Source: an uncultured Lachnospiraceae bacterium (lineage in GTDB: Bacteria > Bacillota > Clostridia > Lachnospirales > Lachnospiraceae). From it: a DNA stretch of 64,000 nucleotides. Below, in pieces: positions 26,606 through 33,212 of the stretch. The position numbers and the translations under genes were made by a program. The stretch lies in the NCBI GenBank assembly GCA_946549035.1, contig CAMNQH010000002.1, positions 39,977 through 103,976 of the forward strand, read 5' to 3'. The notes under the pieces were generated by a model. That model was given only the letters and a program-made list of their open reading frames with translations, made no database searches and was not told the DNA's origin. Within the stretch, counting starts at the first letter, position 1. The number at the start of each line of letters is the position of its first letter.

Positions 26606-27298
26606 TTACGTTAAATATAAATCCTCCGCCAGCTCCATCAATCTCCAGGAATCCTTAATGACATATCCCTTGGGGTATTTTTCCAGGATTCCCTGAGAGA
26701 CAAATTCTTTCATAACCCGCAGCAGATGACGGTAGCTGGTGCCTAAAAGCTCGGAAAGCTGGGTCAGGTTCTCGCAGAAATAATTGTTTTCACTCACTTG
26801 GTAGATATAACTGGCCAGCCTGCTTTCCAGGGGATAGAGAAGATTGATAGAATTATTCCTGCTGACTCTGGTGAGTTTGTCTGCCAGAGAGCGGGAAAGG
26901 AACTGAAGAAAAAGATTGTCCTCCAAAAGCCGTTTGCGAATGGAGGTAATGCGCAAGGCAATGCAGATGCAGGGTTCCACAGCCGTAATGGTGGTGGTGG
27001 AAGTATCGATTTCATGGAATTCCAAGTCTCCCAGAAGCTGGAAAGAGGTATAGAAGCAGACAAGGAGAGATCTGCCGTTGCTCATGTCGCAGCACACCTT
27101 GATTTTTCCGGTTATAAAAAAAAGCAGATACTGCCGTTGGCCTTGCTTTTGATAGATAATCTCATGCTTGGCAAACCGCACCAGATGGAAATAGGGCTTG
27201 TATTCCTCATAATAGCGAAAACGGCCGGGGAGATTATATTGGAGCATCAGCCGGTTCAGCCGTTTTTCATTTTGAATAATTTCCATGTTGCACCTCAT
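26606..27298 (-). CDS. Crp/Fnr-family regulator (YeiL-like)
   Basis: 230 residues. N-terminal cyclic-nucleotide-type barrel (about 30-130) without the arginine/serine cAMP-contact motif, a long dimer helix, then a winged helix-turn-helix (about 165-215, LTQLSELLGTSYRHLLRVMKEF). Cysteines are scattered but there is no N-terminal Cys cluster as in Fnr. It resembles YeiL. Divergent from the flavoprotein gene at 27451, with a perfect TGACA-type palindrome between them. Likely role: switch the flavoprotein gene with the presence of its electron acceptor or a metabolite. Confidence 0.85.
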   Translation of the reverse strand: MRCNMEIIQNEKRLNRLMLQYNLPGRFRYYEEYKPYFHLVRFAKHEIIYQKQGQRQYLLFFITGKIKVCCDMSNGRSLLVCFYTSFQLLGDLEFHEIDTSTTTITAVEPCICIALRITSIRKRLLEDNLFLQFLSRSLADKLTRVSRNNSINLLYPLESRLASYIYQVSENNYFCENLTQLSELLGTSYRHLLRVMKEFVSQGILEKYPKGYVIKDSWRLMELAEDLYLT

Positions 27299-27352
27299 AA
27301 AATATGGTTGCTTTTTACCTTAAGTAAACAAATATAAAATATTACTTTCAGT

Positions 27353-27366
27353 ATGACATATGTCAT
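27353..27366. promoter_or_regulatory. Crp/Fnr-type palindrome
   Basis: ATGACATATGTCAT is a perfect 14-bp palindrome with TGACA and TGTCA arms two bases apart, the same arm spacing as the PrfA box. It sits 55 bp from the regulator start and 85 bp from the flavoprotein start. Confidence 0.65.
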
Positions 27367-27450
27367 GGTTTTGGTCAAGGATGCTGTGATAAAATATAGA
27401 AAGAAAAGACAGGACGAAGATGGAATAAAATAAAAAAGGAGAGGATAGAA

Positions 27451-28899
27451 ATGAAAAACTACGAAGCGCAGATTTGTGTCATCGCGGCTGGTCCCACAGG
27501 GCTGTCTGCGGCAGTGCAGGCGGCGGAGGACGGCGCCAGCGTCATTGTATTGGAGAAAGCGGCAGCAGTAGGCGGAGCCGCCAATATGGGCATGGGGCCT
27601 CTGGGGATCGGCACCAAATATCAGAAGGCTCAGATGATAGACATTTCTGTGGAAAAAGCCTTTAACATGTTTATGGAGTATACCCACTATCAGGTAGACG
27701 CGAGATTGGTAAAGCGCTATTTTGAACAGTCCGGTGAGACCATTGAATGGTTAGAGGATATGGGCGTGGAATTTGAAGGCGCATATCGCTATTTCCCCCA
27801 GTCAGAAGCAACCTGGCATATTGTAAAGACAGACAAGGGTATCGGCCCGAGAGCGGCTTCCTTTATGAATAAGGCTCTCTATGAAAAAGCGTTGGAGCTG
27901 GGAGTTACCTTCCTTCTGGAAACGCCTGCAACTAAGATTTTAAAAGACGAAGAGGGCTGCGTATGCGGCGTTATGGGAGTCGATAAGAGCGGCGAAGAAA
28001 TAAAGGTGGACTGCAAGGCTGCAATCATCTGTACTGGCGGAGCAGGCTGCAATCCGGAGATGATTAAGGAAGAAACAGGATTTACCTTCGGTAAGGATAT
28101 GTTTAACTTTGCCATTCCGGGGATTGTGGGAGACGGCCTTCGGATGGCTTGGGAAGCAGGAGCGGACCATGTGCCGGTTCGTATCGAGATGGCGGCAAAT
28201 ATTGAAGGGATTGACGATCTGCCCCAGTGCATCCCTAATGTATTTATCCAGCCCAACCTGTTGGTAAATCAGTTCGGTAAGCGGGTGATGAACGAGGAGT
28301 ATATGCAGAATGCCACCTATCTTTCCAATGTGGTATCCAATCAGAAAGACCGGGTATGTTATAGTATTGTAGACACTTCCATTGTGAAGAATTATATTCG
28401 AAATGGTGTAGATGTGGTAAGTATGGTTCGTACAGAGACAGACGTATCCGACTTCTATGACGGAGTAAAAATGGCTCAGGAGAATGGAAACGATTCCTTC
28501 TACATAGCAGATACTGTTGAAGAGCTGGCTGAGATGATGGGAATTGATCCCGAGACACTGGCAGATACCATAGATGAATATAACGATTTCTGCGACAGCG
28601 TGGATGAAGAATTCTTCAAGCAGAAGAAGTATTTGAAGGCGGTTCACAAAGGACCCTTCTATGCCACCAGAGTACGAGCAGGTGGATACGGCACCGTAGG
28701 CGGCGTCCGCATCAATGAGAACTGTGAAGCCTGCGGAGCAGATTTTATGCCGATTCCCGGATTATACTGCGCGGGAGCAGATTCCTGTAATATCTATAAC
28801 GACAGCTATATGTTCCTGCTGCCCGGCAATTCCATGGGATACGCAGTGAATACCGGACGTATTGCCGGAATGGAAGCTGCAGAGTTTGTGGAAGAATAA
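27451..28899 (+). CDS. FAD-dependent oxidoreductase, fumarate reductase flavoprotein family
   Basis: 482 residues: FAD-binding Rossmann start, substrate-capping domain (about 230-360) and C-terminal FAD closure (GLYCAGADSCNIYND, GNSMGYAVNTGRIAG). It is a stand-alone flavoprotein subunit with no FMN-bind or heme domain and no signal peptide, so it is cytosolic. The first dinucleotide motif reads VIAAGPTGLSAAVQAAE, with Ala where GxGxxG has its first Gly. The arginine RVRAGGYGTVGG stretch fits the catalytic region of the family. Gut relatives reduce fumarate-like or enone substrates. RBS AAAGGAGAGG. Probably controlled by the divergent Crp/Fnr regulator. Confidence 0.85.
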   Translation: MKNYEAQICVIAAGPTGLSAAVQAAEDGASVIVLEKAAAVGGAANMGMGPLGIGTKYQKAQMIDISVEKAFNMFMEYTHYQVDARLVKRYFEQSGETIEWLEDMGVEFEGAYRYFPQSEATWHIVKTDKGIGPRAASFMNKALYEKALELGVTFLLETPATKILKDEEGCVCGVMGVDKSGEEIKVDCKAAIICTGGAGCNPEMIKEETGFTFGKDMFNFAIPGIVGDGLRMAWEAGADHVPVRIEMAANIEGIDDLPQCIPNVFIQPNLLVNQFGKRVMNEEYMQNATYLSNVVSNQKDRVCYSIVDTSIVKNYIRNGVDVVSMVRTETDVSDFYDGVKMAQENGNDSFYIADTVEELAEMMGIDPETLADTIDEYNDFCDSVDEEFFKQKKYLKAVHKGPFYATRVRAGGYGTVGGVRINENCEACGADFMPIPGLYCAGADSCNIYNDSYMFLLPGNSMGYAVNTGRIAGMEAAEFVEE

Positions 28900-29038: not shown

Positions 29039-29323
29039 TTATTTTATTTGCACACTCAAACTTTTTCCCAGTGATTCAGCTATTTTCGAAAGAAAATCTA
29101 AACTTGGATTATAATTGCCGCTTTCCAGTCGTGAAATATTGCTCTTTTGTGTGCCTATTCTTTTGGCAAGTTCAGATTGAGTTATATTCTGTTCTTTTCT
29201 GATCTTTATGATTTGCTCAATAGCCTCATACCGGGGTTTTAATTTCTCATATTCTGTCTTGAAATCGTTGTCTTTTAGCATATCGTCTTTTATTTTTTCA
29301 AAAGATATCCCTGGGTTAGTCAT
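29039..29323 (-). CDS. HigA-type antitoxin, XRE helix-turn-helix
   Basis: 94 residues. The C-terminal two thirds is a lambda-repressor-like helix-turn-helix (ITQSELAKRIGTQKSNISRLESGNYNPSLDFLSKIAESLG). It is encoded 4 bp overlapping (ATGA) behind the toxin gene, the toxin-first order of higBA loci. It should bind the toxin and the operator upstream of the pair. AT-rich compared with neighbours. Confidence 0.9.
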   Translation of the reverse strand: MTNPGISFEKIKDDMLKDNDFKTEYEKLKPRYEAIEQIIKIRKEQNITQSELAKRIGTQKSNISRLESGNYNPSLDFLSKIAESLGKSLSVQIK

Positions 29324-29706
29324 GCTTTAGTCCTCCTCTTATAATCTTCCATGTATTTTCTTGCTTTTTTAATCTCATTTTCAGATGTTTTCACAGTCTT
29401 TTTTATAAAGCCGTGCAGTAACACAAATTTATTGTTATAATATGTAAAGTAAAATATTCTAGCAATGTCGTTTGAAAATTTTATTCGTAACTCAAACAAA
29501 CCTTTATTCTCTTTACCCTTTATTGGCTTGACATATGGTTCTTTTAATTCATTTCCCAGCTTTTTTAATAATTCAATATCCCTAAATGCTTTGGCTCTTA
29601 GCTTGGGGGCGAGCGTATATAAAAAGTCTCGCACTGGAACTTTGCCATTTTCCTTCATGTAAAAGTCTAATTCAAAAATTTTAATCCCATCTCCTTTTCT
29701 TACCAC
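29320..29706 (-). CDS. HigB/Gp49-type toxin, RelE superfamily
   Basis: 128 residues from a GTG at 29706. The sequence follows the phage Gp49/HigB toxin pattern: KVPVRDFLYTLAPKLRAKAFRDIELL, then GLFELRIKFSNDIARIFYFTYYNNKFVLLHGFIKKT. These toxins are ribosome-dependent mRNA endonucleases. AAAGGAG lies only a few bases before codon 8, so the true start may be further in or non-standard. First gene of a type II toxin-antitoxin operon. Confidence 0.85.
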   Translation of the reverse strand: MVRKGDGIKIFELDFYMKENGKVPVRDFLYTLAPKLRAKAFRDIELLKKLGNELKEPYVKPIKGKENKGLFELRIKFSNDIARIFYFTYYNNKFVLLHGFIKKTVKTSENEIKKARKYMEDYKRRTKA

Positions 29707-29800: not shown

Positions 29801-29829
29801 ATTTTCATAAGTCGAAGGAGGATGATGTA

Positions 29830-32400
29830 ATGAAATACATAGTTTTGGGCGGCGTTGCAGCAGGAACCAAAGCAGCCGCCAAATTAAAACGTTGTGACAG
29901 GGAGGCGGAAGTAAAAGTATTCACAAAAAGCACAGATATTTCCTATGCTGGATGCGGGCTTCCTTACTATATTGGGGGAGATATCGGCACCAGAGAGGAA
30001 TTGATTGTGAATTCTCCGGCAAAGTACGCCGGACTTACAGGCGTTTGGGTGAATACAGGCTGCGAAGCCATTAAGGTTGACAGCAAAGAAAAGCAGGTAA
30101 CGATCCGGCCTATGACGGGGGAAACATTTACGGAAACCTACGATAAGCTGATTATTGCCACAGGAGCCGCGCCTTTTGTGCCTCCGGTGGAAGGAAAGGA
30201 TTTGCCGGGCGTATTTTGTGTCCGTACGCCGGACGATGCAGTAGCGGTGCGGGATTACATAGAGAAAGAGCATTGCCGCAGGGCCGTTGTATGCGGCGCT
30301 GGATTTATCGGTCTTGAGGTGGCGGAAAACCTGATGGCCCAAGGGCTGGAAGTGACTGTGATTGACGCGGCTTCCCAGATTATGCCAAACGCGTTTGACG
30401 AAGAGATGGCCTACTATGCAAAGCGTCAAATCAAAGCGGCTGGAATGCGGGTGCTTACTTCGGTAAGCCTGACCGGAATTACGGGCACACAGTGTGCAGA
30501 AGGGGTCATGACAGACAATGGCAGCATTCCTGCGGATTTGGTAATTCTGGCAATCGGAGTGCGTCCCTGTACGGAATTTTTGACAGACAGCGGCCTTGAA
30601 ATGTTTCGGGGAACGATTATCGTAGATGAGAAGCTTAAGACGAACCTTCCGGATATTTACGCAGTAGGAGATTGCGCGGTAGTAAAACATGCCTTGACAG
30701 GGGCAGCCCAATGGTCCGCTATGGGATCCACGGCTAATTTGGCGGCAAGAGCTATGGCCAAGGGCATGTATGGACTGGGGAATGGTTATGGAGGATGCCT
30801 TGGAACAGGCGTTGTGCGTATTCTTCCCACACTAAATGGCGGCAGGACAGGGCTTACGGAAGAACAGGCCAAGGCGGCAGGCTTTGATGCGGCCTCCGTT
30901 GTCTGTGTCTTGGACGACAAGGCTCATTATTATCCGGGGGCGTCTTCCTTTATCGTTAAACTGACGGCAGAAAAAGAAAGCCGCAGACTTTTGGGGATTC
31001 AGGTACTGGGTGCCGGTGCAGTAGATAAAATGGTGGATATTGCAGTTACCGGAATTTCCAGAGAAATGAAGCTGGATGATTTTGATACGCTGGATTTTGC
31101 CTATGCGCCTCCTTTTTCCACGGCGATTCATCCCTTTGTGACAGCCTGTTACATTCTGGAGAACAAATTAGACGGAGTGTTAGAGAGCATGAGTCCGGCA
31201 GAATATAAGAAGGGAGCTGCCGAGGGATATACGGTGCTTGACGTGCAGCCGGCTCCTGCTATTCCCAATGCCCGCTGGATAGAATTAGCGTCCGTGACGG
31301 AGCCCATAGAAGGCTTGGAAAAATCAGCCAAGCTGCTCTTGGTGTGTGCAAAAGGCAAGCGGGGATATTTCCTGCAGAACCGTTTGAAGGCCCTTGGTTA
31401 TACCAATACCCTTGTTCTGGAGGGAGGAGTTACCTTTAATGAAGTAAAGGTTCCAAGAGACGGTAAAAAGCTTTCTCCAGAAGAAATCAAACGGGTGAAA
31501 GGACTTGGGTGCCTTCAGGATAAACGGTACGACGATATTTTTAACGTGAGAGTCATCACCAGAAACGGTAAAATTACGGCAGAAGAGCAGATCAAGATTG
31601 CAGAGGCGGCGGCAAAATTCGGCTCCGGGGAGGTCACTATGACCACAAGACTTACCCTGGAGATTCAGGGAGTTCCTTATGACAAGATTGAGGAGCTGCG
31701 TGAATTTTTGGAAGAAGTGGGTCTTGAAACCGGAGGCACAGGCTCTAAAGTACGTCCGGTGGTGTCTTGTAAAGGAACCACCTGCCAATATGGACTCATT
31801 GACACCTTCGATTTGTCTAAGAAGCTGCATGACATTTATTATACAGGGTATCATGATGTGGCCCTGCCCCACAAGTTCAAAATTGCTGTGGGAGGCTGTC
31901 CCAACAACTGTGTGAAACCGGATCTCAATGACCTTGGCATCATTGGCCAGCGCGTACCGGAAATTGATCTGTCCAAATGCCGGGGCTGTAAAGTATGTCA
32001 GGTGGAGAACGCTTGTCCCATTCATGTGGCTCAGATGGAGGATGGCAAGATCCGGATACCGGAGGAGAATTGTAATCATTGCGGCCGTTGCATTTCCAAA
32101 TGTCCCTTTGGGGCCGTAAATGAGTCCGGGGTAGGTTATAAGGTCTATATCGGAGGCCGTTGGGGCAAGAAAGTGGCAGGAGGCCGTCCGCTGGATAAGA
32201 TTTTTACCTCAGAAGAGGAAGTTGTGGATTTGGTAGAACGCGCCGTCTTATTCTTCCGGGATGAAGGTCAGTCAGGAGAACGCTTTGCAGATACCATTGC
32301 CAGACTGGGATTCGATTACGTCCAGGATAAATTGCTTAACAGTAAGATTGACAAGAGTAAAATTTTGGAGAAAACCGTAGTTGGCGGAGCCACCTGCTGA
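29830..32400 (+). CDS. Fused CoA-disulfide reductase - rhodanese - siroheme reductase - ferredoxin protein
   Basis: 856 residues with four modules. 1-445: FAD/NAD(P)H pyridine nucleotide-disulfide oxidoreductase of the CoA-disulfide/polysulfide reductase type, with the single redox Cys42 in SYAGCGLPYYIGG. About 455-545: rhodanese-like domain with candidate persulfide Cys506 (LLVCAKGKRGY). About 560-710: one sulfite/nitrite-reductase repeat with Cys647 and Cys652 (CKGTTC) and Cys690 and Cys694 (GGCPNNC), predicted to hold siroheme and a 4Fe-4S cluster. About 718-775: two 4Fe-4S motifs, CRGCKVC and CNHCGRCISKC. It would pass electrons from NAD(P)H to sulfite, polysulfide or a related sulfur species, all in one cytosolic chain. 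The first cysteine pair is C-x4-C, while classical enzymes have C-x5-C. Overlaps the next gene by one base. Confidence 0.85.
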   Translation: MKYIVLGGVAAGTKAAAKLKRCDREAEVKVFTKSTDISYAGCGLPYYIGGDIGTREELIVNSPAKYAGLTGVWVNTGCEAIKVDSKEKQVTIRPMTGETFTETYDKLIIATGAAPFVPPVEGKDLPGVFCVRTPDDAVAVRDYIEKEHCRRAVVCGAGFIGLEVAENLMAQGLEVTVIDAASQIMPNAFDEEMAYYAKRQIKAAGMRVLTSVSLTGITGTQCAEGVMTDNGSIPADLVILAIGVRPCTEFLTDSGLEMFRGTIIVDEKLKTNLPDIYAVGDCAVVKHALTGAAQWSAMGSTANLAARAMAKGMYGLGNGYGGCLGTGVVRILPTLNGGRTGLTEEQAKAAGFDAASVVCVLDDKAHYYPGASSFIVKLTAEKESRRLLGIQVLGAGAVDKMVDIAVTGISREMKLDDFDTLDFAYAPPFSTAIHPFVTACYILENKLDGVLESMSPAEYKKGAAEGYTVLDVQPAPAIPNARWIELASVTEPIEGLEKSAKLLLVCAKGKRGYFLQNRLKALGYTNTLVLEGGVTFNEVKVPRDGKKLSPEEIKRVKGLGCLQDKRYDDIFNVRVITRNGKITAEEQIKIAEAAAKFGSGEVTMTTRLTLEIQGVPYDKIEELREFLEEVGLETGGTGSKVRPVVSCKGTTCQYGLIDTFDLSKKLHDIYYTGYHDVALPHKFKIAVGGCPNNCVKPDLNDLGIIGQRVPEIDLSKCRGCKVCQVENACPIHVAQMEDGKIRIPEENCNHCGRCISKCPFGAVNESGVGYKVYIGGRWGKKVAGGRPLDKIFTSEEEVVDLVERAVLFFRDEGQSGERFADTIARLGFDYVQDKLLNSKIDKSKILEKTVVGGATC

Positions 32401-33212
32401 TGATACGGATTTTAACCCTGATAGAAAATACCTCCGGGAACCCCCAATATGTTTGCGAGCATGGACTGTCCGTCTATATTGAGACTGGAAAACACAGAAT
32501 TCTTGCAGACACGGGGGCTTCCCCCGGTTTTCTGGAAAACGCCTGCAGCTTGGGCGTGGATTTGGAAAAAATAGATACGGTAGTTTTAAGTCATGGACAT
32601 TACGACCATTCCGGGGGAATTTTAGCGTTTTCTGAAATAAATGCTCATGCTAGGATTTATATGCAGCAAACGGCCGGAGGGGATTATTACCATGGCGATA
32701 AGTATATTGGAGTGGATAAGAAAATTTTAGAGTTGCCCCAGGCGGTATTTTTAAATGGGGATACCGAAATAGACGAAGAGCTTTTTTTATTTTCTAACGT
32801 TACAGGAAGAAGATGTTATCCTCAGAGTAATTTGGCGTTGTCCAAGATAGAGAATGGGAAGCAGGTGCAGGAAGATTTTGCCCATGAACAATACCTGGTA
32901 ATTCGTGAGGATGAGAAGCATATCTTGATATCCGGGTGCGCTCATAATGGAATATTAAATATACTTGATCGTTACCAGGAATTATTTCAAACCGTGCCGG
33001 ACGTTGTGATTAGCGGATTTCATCTGATGAAACGGACAGAATATACCCTCCAGGAAAAACAAGTGATTCTGGATACGGCAAAAGAGCTGAATCAGATGAA
33101 GACAATTTTTTATACAGGTCATTGTACCGGAGGGCCGGCCATGGAGCTGATGGAATCGGTGATGGGAGATAGACTGGGCAGGCTCTATAGCGGCTGCGAG
33201 ATTGTTTTATGA
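32400..33212 (+). CDS. MBL-fold metallo-hydrolase
   Basis: 270 residues. Zinc motif SHGHYDHSGG (about 64-73) plus ADTGA at the strand before it; later ligands are in CAHNG and in GFHLM. It resembles the small family annotated as dihydropteridine or tetrahydromethanopterin-linked beta-lactamase-fold enzymes rather than the ETHE1 persulfide dioxygenases. Its ATG shares one base with the stop of the sulfur reductase gene, so the products are made in step and probably work on the same pathway. Substrate unknown. Confidence 0.85.
   Translation: MIRILTLIENTSGNPQYVCEHGLSVYIETGKHRILADTGASPGFLENACSLGVDLEKIDTVVLSHGHYDHSGGILAFSEINAHARIYMQQTAGGDYYHGDKYIGVDKKILELPQAVFLNGDTEIDEELFLFSNVTGRRCYPQSNLALSKIENGKQVQEDFAHEQYLVIREDEKHILISGCAHNGILNILDRYQELFQTVPDVVISGFHLMKRTEYTLQEKQVILDTAKELNQMKTIFYTGHCTGGPAMELMESVMGDRLGRLYSGCEIVL

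Follow-up and report, generated by a model that had tools for sequence, protein, structure and literature searches.

A CoADR-rhodanese-siroheme fusion protein with a C-terminal cysteine

The 64,000-nucleotide stretch of DNA analyzed here (the window), from an uncultured Lachnospiraceae bacterium (contig CAMNQH010000002.1, positions 39,977 to 103,976), carries on its forward strand a gene that joins coenzyme A (CoA)-disulfide reductase (CoADR), rhodanese and siroheme sulfite reductase domains in one chain (window positions 29830 to 32400). The fusion is a new combination of known parts with one new feature, a C-terminal GGATC tail, and the siroheme proteins of this group end in such a cysteine almost exclusively when they are fused or adjacent to a CoADR-rhodanese partner. 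We hypothesize that the protein is a siroheme sulfite reductase coupled to a persulfide reductase, with the terminal residue, Cys856, as the relay between them, a reading to which we assign a probability of roughly 45% on the basis of sequence and predicted structure. We found no description of a CoADR-rhodanese-siroheme fusion in the open-access papers searched.

The gene begins with an ATG at 29830, 8 bases downstream of a Shine-Dalgarno-like AAGGAGG read from the sequence (29815 to 29821, plus strand), and extends as a complete open reading frame of 856 codons to a stop codon at 32398 to 32400. Pfam matches above cut-off to Pyr_redox_2 (residues 1-294, E 2.7e-61) and Pyr_redox_dim (residues 338-433) define a CoADR, or NADH persulfide reductase, module (residues 1-433, 29830 to 31128), followed by a rhodanese domain (PF00581, residues 456-534, E 1.4e-6, 31195 to 31431) and a single siroheme sulfite reductase repeat (31534 to 32334) that comprises NIR_SIR_ferr (residues 569-629, E 4.7e-14) and NIR_SIR (residues 638-835, E 2.7e-30). 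Fer4 models, also above cut-off, mark a two-cluster [4Fe-4S] ferredoxin insert at residues 711-763 (31960 to 32118), and comparison of fused loci delimits the GGATC tail at residues 852-856 (32383 to 32397). The reading frame and the Pfam matches thus confirm an earlier note on this DNA, which had placed all of these parts in one 856-residue protein; the domains and motifs that it listed are borne out, but the list lacked the invariant C-terminal GGATC. An AlphaFold2 model of the whole chain had a predicted local distance difference test score (pLDDT) of 91.4 and a predicted template modelling score (pTM) of 0.68, indicating that the domains are well defined while their mutual arrangement is uncertain. 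Conservation is given below as counts among 81 aligned fused homologues.

The terminal cysteine and the CoADR-rhodanese partner

In a scan of one genome per species we found at least 591 relatives. All of the best 80, selected by their resemblance to the whole fusion protein, are themselves fusions. Fused relatives occur in Lachnospiraceae, Oscillospiraceae, Atopobiaceae and others, including Schaedlerella, Flavonifractor, Olsenella, Collinsella and Thermophilibacter; the last three are gut Actinobacteria, so that the scope of gut Clostridia first suggested for this protein was too narrow. Matches above threshold were present in 24 of 295 genomes of the order sample and, for the siroheme part only, in 56 of 391 genomes of the class sample. 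The genes take three arrangements: the fusion, a two-gene pair with the CoADR-rhodanese gene directly 5' of the siroheme gene, and a lone siroheme gene, whose product retains the ferredoxin insert.

The terminal motif GGA(T/S/Q/K)C is nearly invariant among fused or partnered proteins. It is present in 80/80 fused loci (GGATC in 69, GGASC in 10 and GGAKC in 1), unlike many of the residues directly before it, which are variable, and the low pLDDT of this region in the AlphaFold2 models suggests that the tail is flexible. The pattern was first seen in one set and then tested on newly drawn genomes. In a combined sample of relatives from the class, order and phylum, a GGAxC end was found in 35/35 siroheme proteins fused or adjacent to CoADR-rhodanese versus 1/39 without such a partner (L203, whose frame enters unrelated sequence near a contig end, was excluded from this count). 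The Fisher value for these counts takes no account of kinship, and we do not offer it as proof. When the tail columns are left out of the tree, partner state changes 7 to 8 times (8 on the careful tree); across five independent pairs with good support, tail and partner change together 5.0 times and in opposite ways 0 times. The lone protein L237, 74% identical, ends in GGAASL and has lost the terminal cysteine. Genomes with paired proteins hold a close CoADR (49 to 57% identity), and those genomes with lone tail-less proteins that were checked hold only a generic CoADR (≤38% identity) or none at threshold.

The best reading of a terminal cysteine on a flexible tail, kept only with a CoADR partner, is that its thiol exchanges sulfur or disulfide with CoADR-rhodanese, and we tentatively suggest, at slightly less than even confidence, that Cys856 serves as a mobile thiol between the two modules, a sulfur or redox relay. 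The same genes could instead provide two separate, co-regulated activities, a sulfite reductase that draws on ferredoxin and a CoA-persulfide reductase that removes persulfides arising from sulfide production, and it fits this that both halves occur as separate genes, that the ferredoxin insert persists in lone siroheme proteins and that generic CoADR-rhodanese genes of up to 38% identity lie elsewhere in the relatives' genomes. Retention of the terminal cysteine in all partnered proteins, two-gene pairs included, and its near absence from lone ones point to physical interaction rather than mere co-expression and make two independent activities improbable.

The siroheme half and its substrate

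The F420-dependent sulfite reductase Fsr binds sulfite through Arg355, Arg423, Lys460 and Lys462, and its Arg388 is a marker of the six-electron (assimilatory) type (PMC10229431). The four binding residues, with numbering checked on the aligned chain sequence, correspond to R574, R642, K682 and K684 and are invariant in a 23-sequence alignment and in 81/81 fused homologues, which answers the concern, raised in the earlier note, that the basic substrate-binding residues might prove absent on alignment. Arg388 of MjFsr, counted by hand on the same chain sequence, aligns with R607, which is invariant in the same 23 sequences and 81 fused proteins. The predicted C-x4-C and C-x3-C pairs of a single siroheme domain are C647-x4-C652 and C690-x3-C694, conserved in 81/81. 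Both ferredoxin cysteine sets, 717/720/723/729 and 748/751/754/758, are likewise kept at every position in 81/81, in agreement with the two motifs expected, except that the last spacing of the first set is x5 where x3 is usual.

The NIR_SIR_ferr and NIR_SIR domains, the four basic residues and the four cluster cysteines (647/652/690/694) place the protein in the siroheme sulfite/nitrite reductase superfamily. Its cluster motif, C-x4-C-xn-C-x3-C, is common to all close relatives and is one residue shorter than CX5CXnCX3C, the motif of Fsr and of the assimilatory type; the DsrB motif CXnCCX3C is absent as well, and the dsrB model scores 101 bits against a cut-off of 341. R607 together with the order of the cluster motif makes the siroheme centre look assimilatory rather than Dsr-like. 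The AlphaFold2 model of the siroheme domain (pLDDT 93.3, pTM 0.89) retrieved Fsr first with Foldseek (7npa/7np8, query TM-score [TMq] 0.78), then DsrAB and then assimilatory enzymes, and in a PDB search the second half of the chain aligned with Fsr. We consider it very probable from these signatures that the protein is a sulfite reductase, with sulfite the likely physiological substrate of the siroheme centre. The original proposal of a sulfite, polysulfide or organosulfur reductase holds for sulfite, given the substrate residues, but polysulfide or organosulfur would fit the CoADR-rhodanese half only.

The resemblance to Fsr extends to a domain order in which a flavin module precedes a single siroheme repeat with a two-cluster ferredoxin insert, as well as to the substrate-binding residues and the Arg388 marker (about 28% identity across the siroheme domain). 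Fsr differs in having an F420H2 oxidase input, an N-terminal ferredoxin domain and a C-x5-C motif, whereas the present protein has a CoADR-rhodanese input at its N-terminus, no N-terminal ferredoxin domain, C-x4-C and the C-terminal GGATC; the suggestion of an Fsr-like shape with a different input module was thus well founded. AsrC shares the small siroheme repeat with a ferredoxin insert and the clostridial distribution but works with AsrA and AsrB, and in the present locus CoADR-rhodanese stands in their stead. With these partners missing from the locus and a score of 105 bits against the AsrC (TIGR02912) cut-off of 324, we rejected membership in AsrC. The NirB large subunit also combines an NAD(P)H flavin module and a siroheme repeat on one chain, but has an NADH/BFD part where the present protein has CoADR plus rhodanese.

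A siroheme centre of this kind might act on nitrite or another oxyanion instead of sulfite. Fsr favours nitrite by Km in vitro (PMC10229431), and the substrate residues are common to siroheme enzymes. We regard this as highly improbable for the present protein, as its persulfide-handling partner and nearby genes all point to sulfur: YeiE ranks among the top model matches of divergent LysR genes at related loci (below the YeiE cut-off), and three loci have YeiH-family genes close by. Salmonella resists sulfite through YeiE and YeiH (PMC12880088).

The CoADR-rhodanese half and electron input

Over the whole of residues 1-536 the chain aligns with CoA-persulfide reductases of known structure (top PDB match 8a56, E 2e-99), and Foldseek matched the first half of the chain to CoAPR, Npsr and CoADR-RHD at a target TM-score (TMt) of about 0.9. 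The likeness to these NADH persulfide reductases (Bacillus anthracis 3ict, Shewanella loihica Npsr 3nta and Enterococcus faecalis CoAPR 8a56) covers the same 536 residues; they stop after the rhodanese domain, while here a siroheme reductase continues the chain or follows as the next gene. With E. faecalis CoAPR the protein shares 37% identity (TMt 0.93), C42, both tyrosines and the rhodanese cysteine. As the earlier note had read from the sequence, the CoADR module has a single cysteine, Cys42 (codon 29953 to 29955), conserved along with Y367 and Y425 in 81/81, and the rhodanese domain is genuine by its Pfam match and by Cys506 (codon 31345 to 31347, in the loop C-A-K-G-K-R), present in 81/81 fused proteins and in 13/13 adjacent two-gene partners. 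D179, which closes the second strand of the NAD fold and is conserved in 80/81, points to NADH as the probable cofactor. Scores below the NCBIfam CoA-disulfide reductase equivalog cut-offs (377 versus 458 bits and 371 versus 579 bits) make the protein a CoADR relative and not an equivalog by the NCBIfam rule. An FrhB-type F420H2 oxidase is absent from the N-terminus, where residues 1-450 are CoADR. Persulfides are the usual substrate class of CoADR enzymes.

The flavin module could simply supply electrons, in which case the protein would be a plain NADH-driven sulfite reductase passing electrons from NADH through the CoADR FAD and [4Fe-4S] clusters to siroheme, as in Fsr and NirB, with the tail only docking the modules. 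NADH would have sufficient potential for sulfite reduction, as the NADPH-dependent sulfite reductase illustrates. The domain order, with a flavin module ahead of the siroheme repeat as in Fsr, agrees with such a route, as do N-terminal matches to the NirB model (250 bits, cut-off 578), to PadH-type subunits (184 bits, likewise below cut-off) and to subunit E of 8c0z, NirB and PadH-type subunits being known to exchange electrons with Fe-S partners. Simple electron input would leave the complete persulfide reductase site (C42/Y367/Y425 plus C506) superfluous, however, and a docking tail has no need of a terminal cysteine. Close siroheme relatives also occur without any CoADR partner and thus receive electrons without its help; and as lone relatives keep the ferredoxin insert without tail or CoADR, we do not regard CoADR as simply an electron input that they have lost. 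We therefore consider a plain NADH route unlikely, though it deserves serious consideration.

The rhodanese domain raises a further alternative, a one-chain thiosulfate reductase in which rhodanese would split thiosulfate into sulfite and a persulfide, the siroheme centre and CoADR would reduce these respectively to give two HS-, and Cys856 would help to move the sulfane sulfur. By domain content all three required activities are on one chain, C506 is invariant, and such a function would account for rhodanese, CoADR and sulfite reductase staying together. It would also parallel the thiosulfate pathway proposed for Halanaerobium, which consists of rhodanese and anaerobic sulfite reductase, rhodanese and asr genes co-occurring in many Clostridia (PMC5497025). 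The closest solved CoADR-rhodanese, E. faecalis CoAPR, is nevertheless specific for CoA persulfide (PMC9405070), and Fsr does not accept thiosulfate (PMC10229431). The CAKGKR loop is not diagnostic of thiosulfate use, and no thiosulfate genes were seen beside the fusion gene. We judge this function to be quite unlikely.

A possible sulfur relay and the points against it

In the coupled scheme that we favour, the protein would reduce sulfite to sulfide in the cytoplasm. Its assimilatory-type siroheme centre would receive electrons, from FAD or an external ferredoxin, by way of the two [4Fe-4S] clusters that it carries, and would be coupled to an NADH-dependent CoADR-rhodanese persulfide reductase. 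Cys856, a mobile thiol between the modules on its flexible GGATC tail, would take sulfane sulfur (as persulfide) or a disulfide equivalent from one module and hand it to the other, in either direction, and rhodanese Cys506, bound CoA, Cys42, FAD and NADH would reduce the delivered sulfur to HS-. In E. faecalis CoAPR, 27 Å separate C42 from rhodanese C508, the counterparts of Cys42 and Cys506; CoA bridges the gap as an arm, and in cells C508 carries a persulfide (PMC9405070).

Several observations weigh against this coupling. The sign test on the supported pairs gives p 0.0625, the minimum attainable with five pairs, and the association of tail and partner could also mean docking. Two proteins, L209 (SGATC) and L210 (TTATC), end in ATC although no close CoADR partner accompanies them, and L219 ends in GGATC with only a generic 35% CoADR beside it, divergent and on the opposite strand. 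The genomes G221, G229 and G206 have a close CoADR-rhodanese unlinked to the sulfite reductase, whose match stops before the tail. Finally, R607 and C-x4-C-xn-C-x3-C suggest an assimilatory-type centre, and enzymes of this type release HS- directly and would not be expected to need a DsrC-like carrier (PMC10229431). Since such a centre should complete the six-electron reduction alone, a strict analogy to DsrC is disfavoured and the thiosulfate function stays in play.

DsrAB and DsrC are alike by analogy only: DsrC, too, presents a conserved cysteine to a siroheme enzyme and to a reductase, at the end of a flexible C-terminal tail. That system relies on membrane DsrMKJOP where the present protein, a single chain, would use NADH, and the cluster motif and R607 are not of the Dsr type. 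Homology of the GGATC tail to DsrC was rejected, as none was found. Still more tentatively, and by analogy, the protein may be a one-chain counterpart of Dsr/DsrC, that is, a soluble NADH-linked enzyme whose C-terminal cysteine carries sulfur between the siroheme centre and the persulfide reductase, turning sulfite or thiosulfate into sulfide by two chemistries across many gut bacteria.

Surveys of hydrogen sulfide production in the gut rely on counts of dsrAB and asrABC (e.g., PMC9016944), while the relatives described here are found in hundreds of genomes from common gut families and the protein scores below both the dsr and AsrC cut-offs. If the fusion protein makes sulfide, gut sulfite and thiosulfate reduction is under-counted by dsr/asr-based surveys.

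Siroheme supply and other sulfur genes

Consistent with a siroheme reductase, siroheme synthesis genes adjoin several relatives, encoding a CbiK chelatase (L079), Met8/CysG-type enzymes (L085, L123 and others), a HemA glutamyl-tRNA reductase (L047) and SirC precorrin-2 dehydrogenase with HemC (L048). The source genome encodes HemA, SirC, HemC, a CobA/HemD fusion, HemB and HemL in a row on contig C30 (SirC assigned by Pfam match, the others read from the sequence) and has two CbiK genes. A CbiK-domain protein with a lipoprotein-like signal, encoded beside a Fec-type transporter (C15, L286:4576-5679, minus strand), suggests by its sequence an exported chelatase-like protein. A second siroheme reductase, a two-repeat NirA/CysI-like protein of 538 residues (C12, L001:763-2379, minus strand), indicates that siroheme is needed elsewhere in the genome too. 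At about 26 loci a Fec-type ABC transporter (binding protein, permease and ATPase) lies 3' of the siroheme gene, following both fused and lone forms (L029, L085, L089, L102-L119, L238, L240, L241, L257 and others); its cargo may be iron, a tetrapyrrole or another compound.

The source genome also encodes AsrA and AsrB homologues above NCBIfam cut-offs (C10, L284:6484-12252), together with a TorD-like chaperone, a 4Fe-4S subunit and a PhsA-like molybdopterin enzyme. A NIR_SIR search of the contig detected no AsrC (the genome is about 84% complete), and the locus is possibly an NADH-linked molybdenum sulfur reductase with Asr-type input subunits. We did not adopt these AsrA and AsrB homologues as partners of the fusion protein, as they lie on another contig with the PhsA-like molybdenum enzyme.

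Neighbouring genes in the window

The fusion gene is followed on the same strand by an open reading frame for a metallo-beta-lactamase-fold hydrolase (32400 to 33212, relatives 2p4z and 3h3e) whose start overlaps the fusion stop in TGATG. The stop-start coupling reported in the earlier note is thus present, but the hydrolase adjoins the fusion only in the source genome and its 97%-identical sister; we rejected it as a conserved component of the system, and it is a lineage-specific neighbour. A FAD enzyme 5' of the fusion (27451 to 28899) was rejected as a partner because it is limited to the same two genomes. Its region (26606 to 28899) pairs a YeiL-like Crp-family regulator with this divergent FAD_binding_2 flavoprotein, which is vinyl phenol reductase-like below cut-off. 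Just 5' of the fusion, on the opposite strand (29039 to 29706, minus), are overlapping genes for a Gp49-family protein and then a helix-turn-helix protein, in a toxin-antitoxin-like arrangement.

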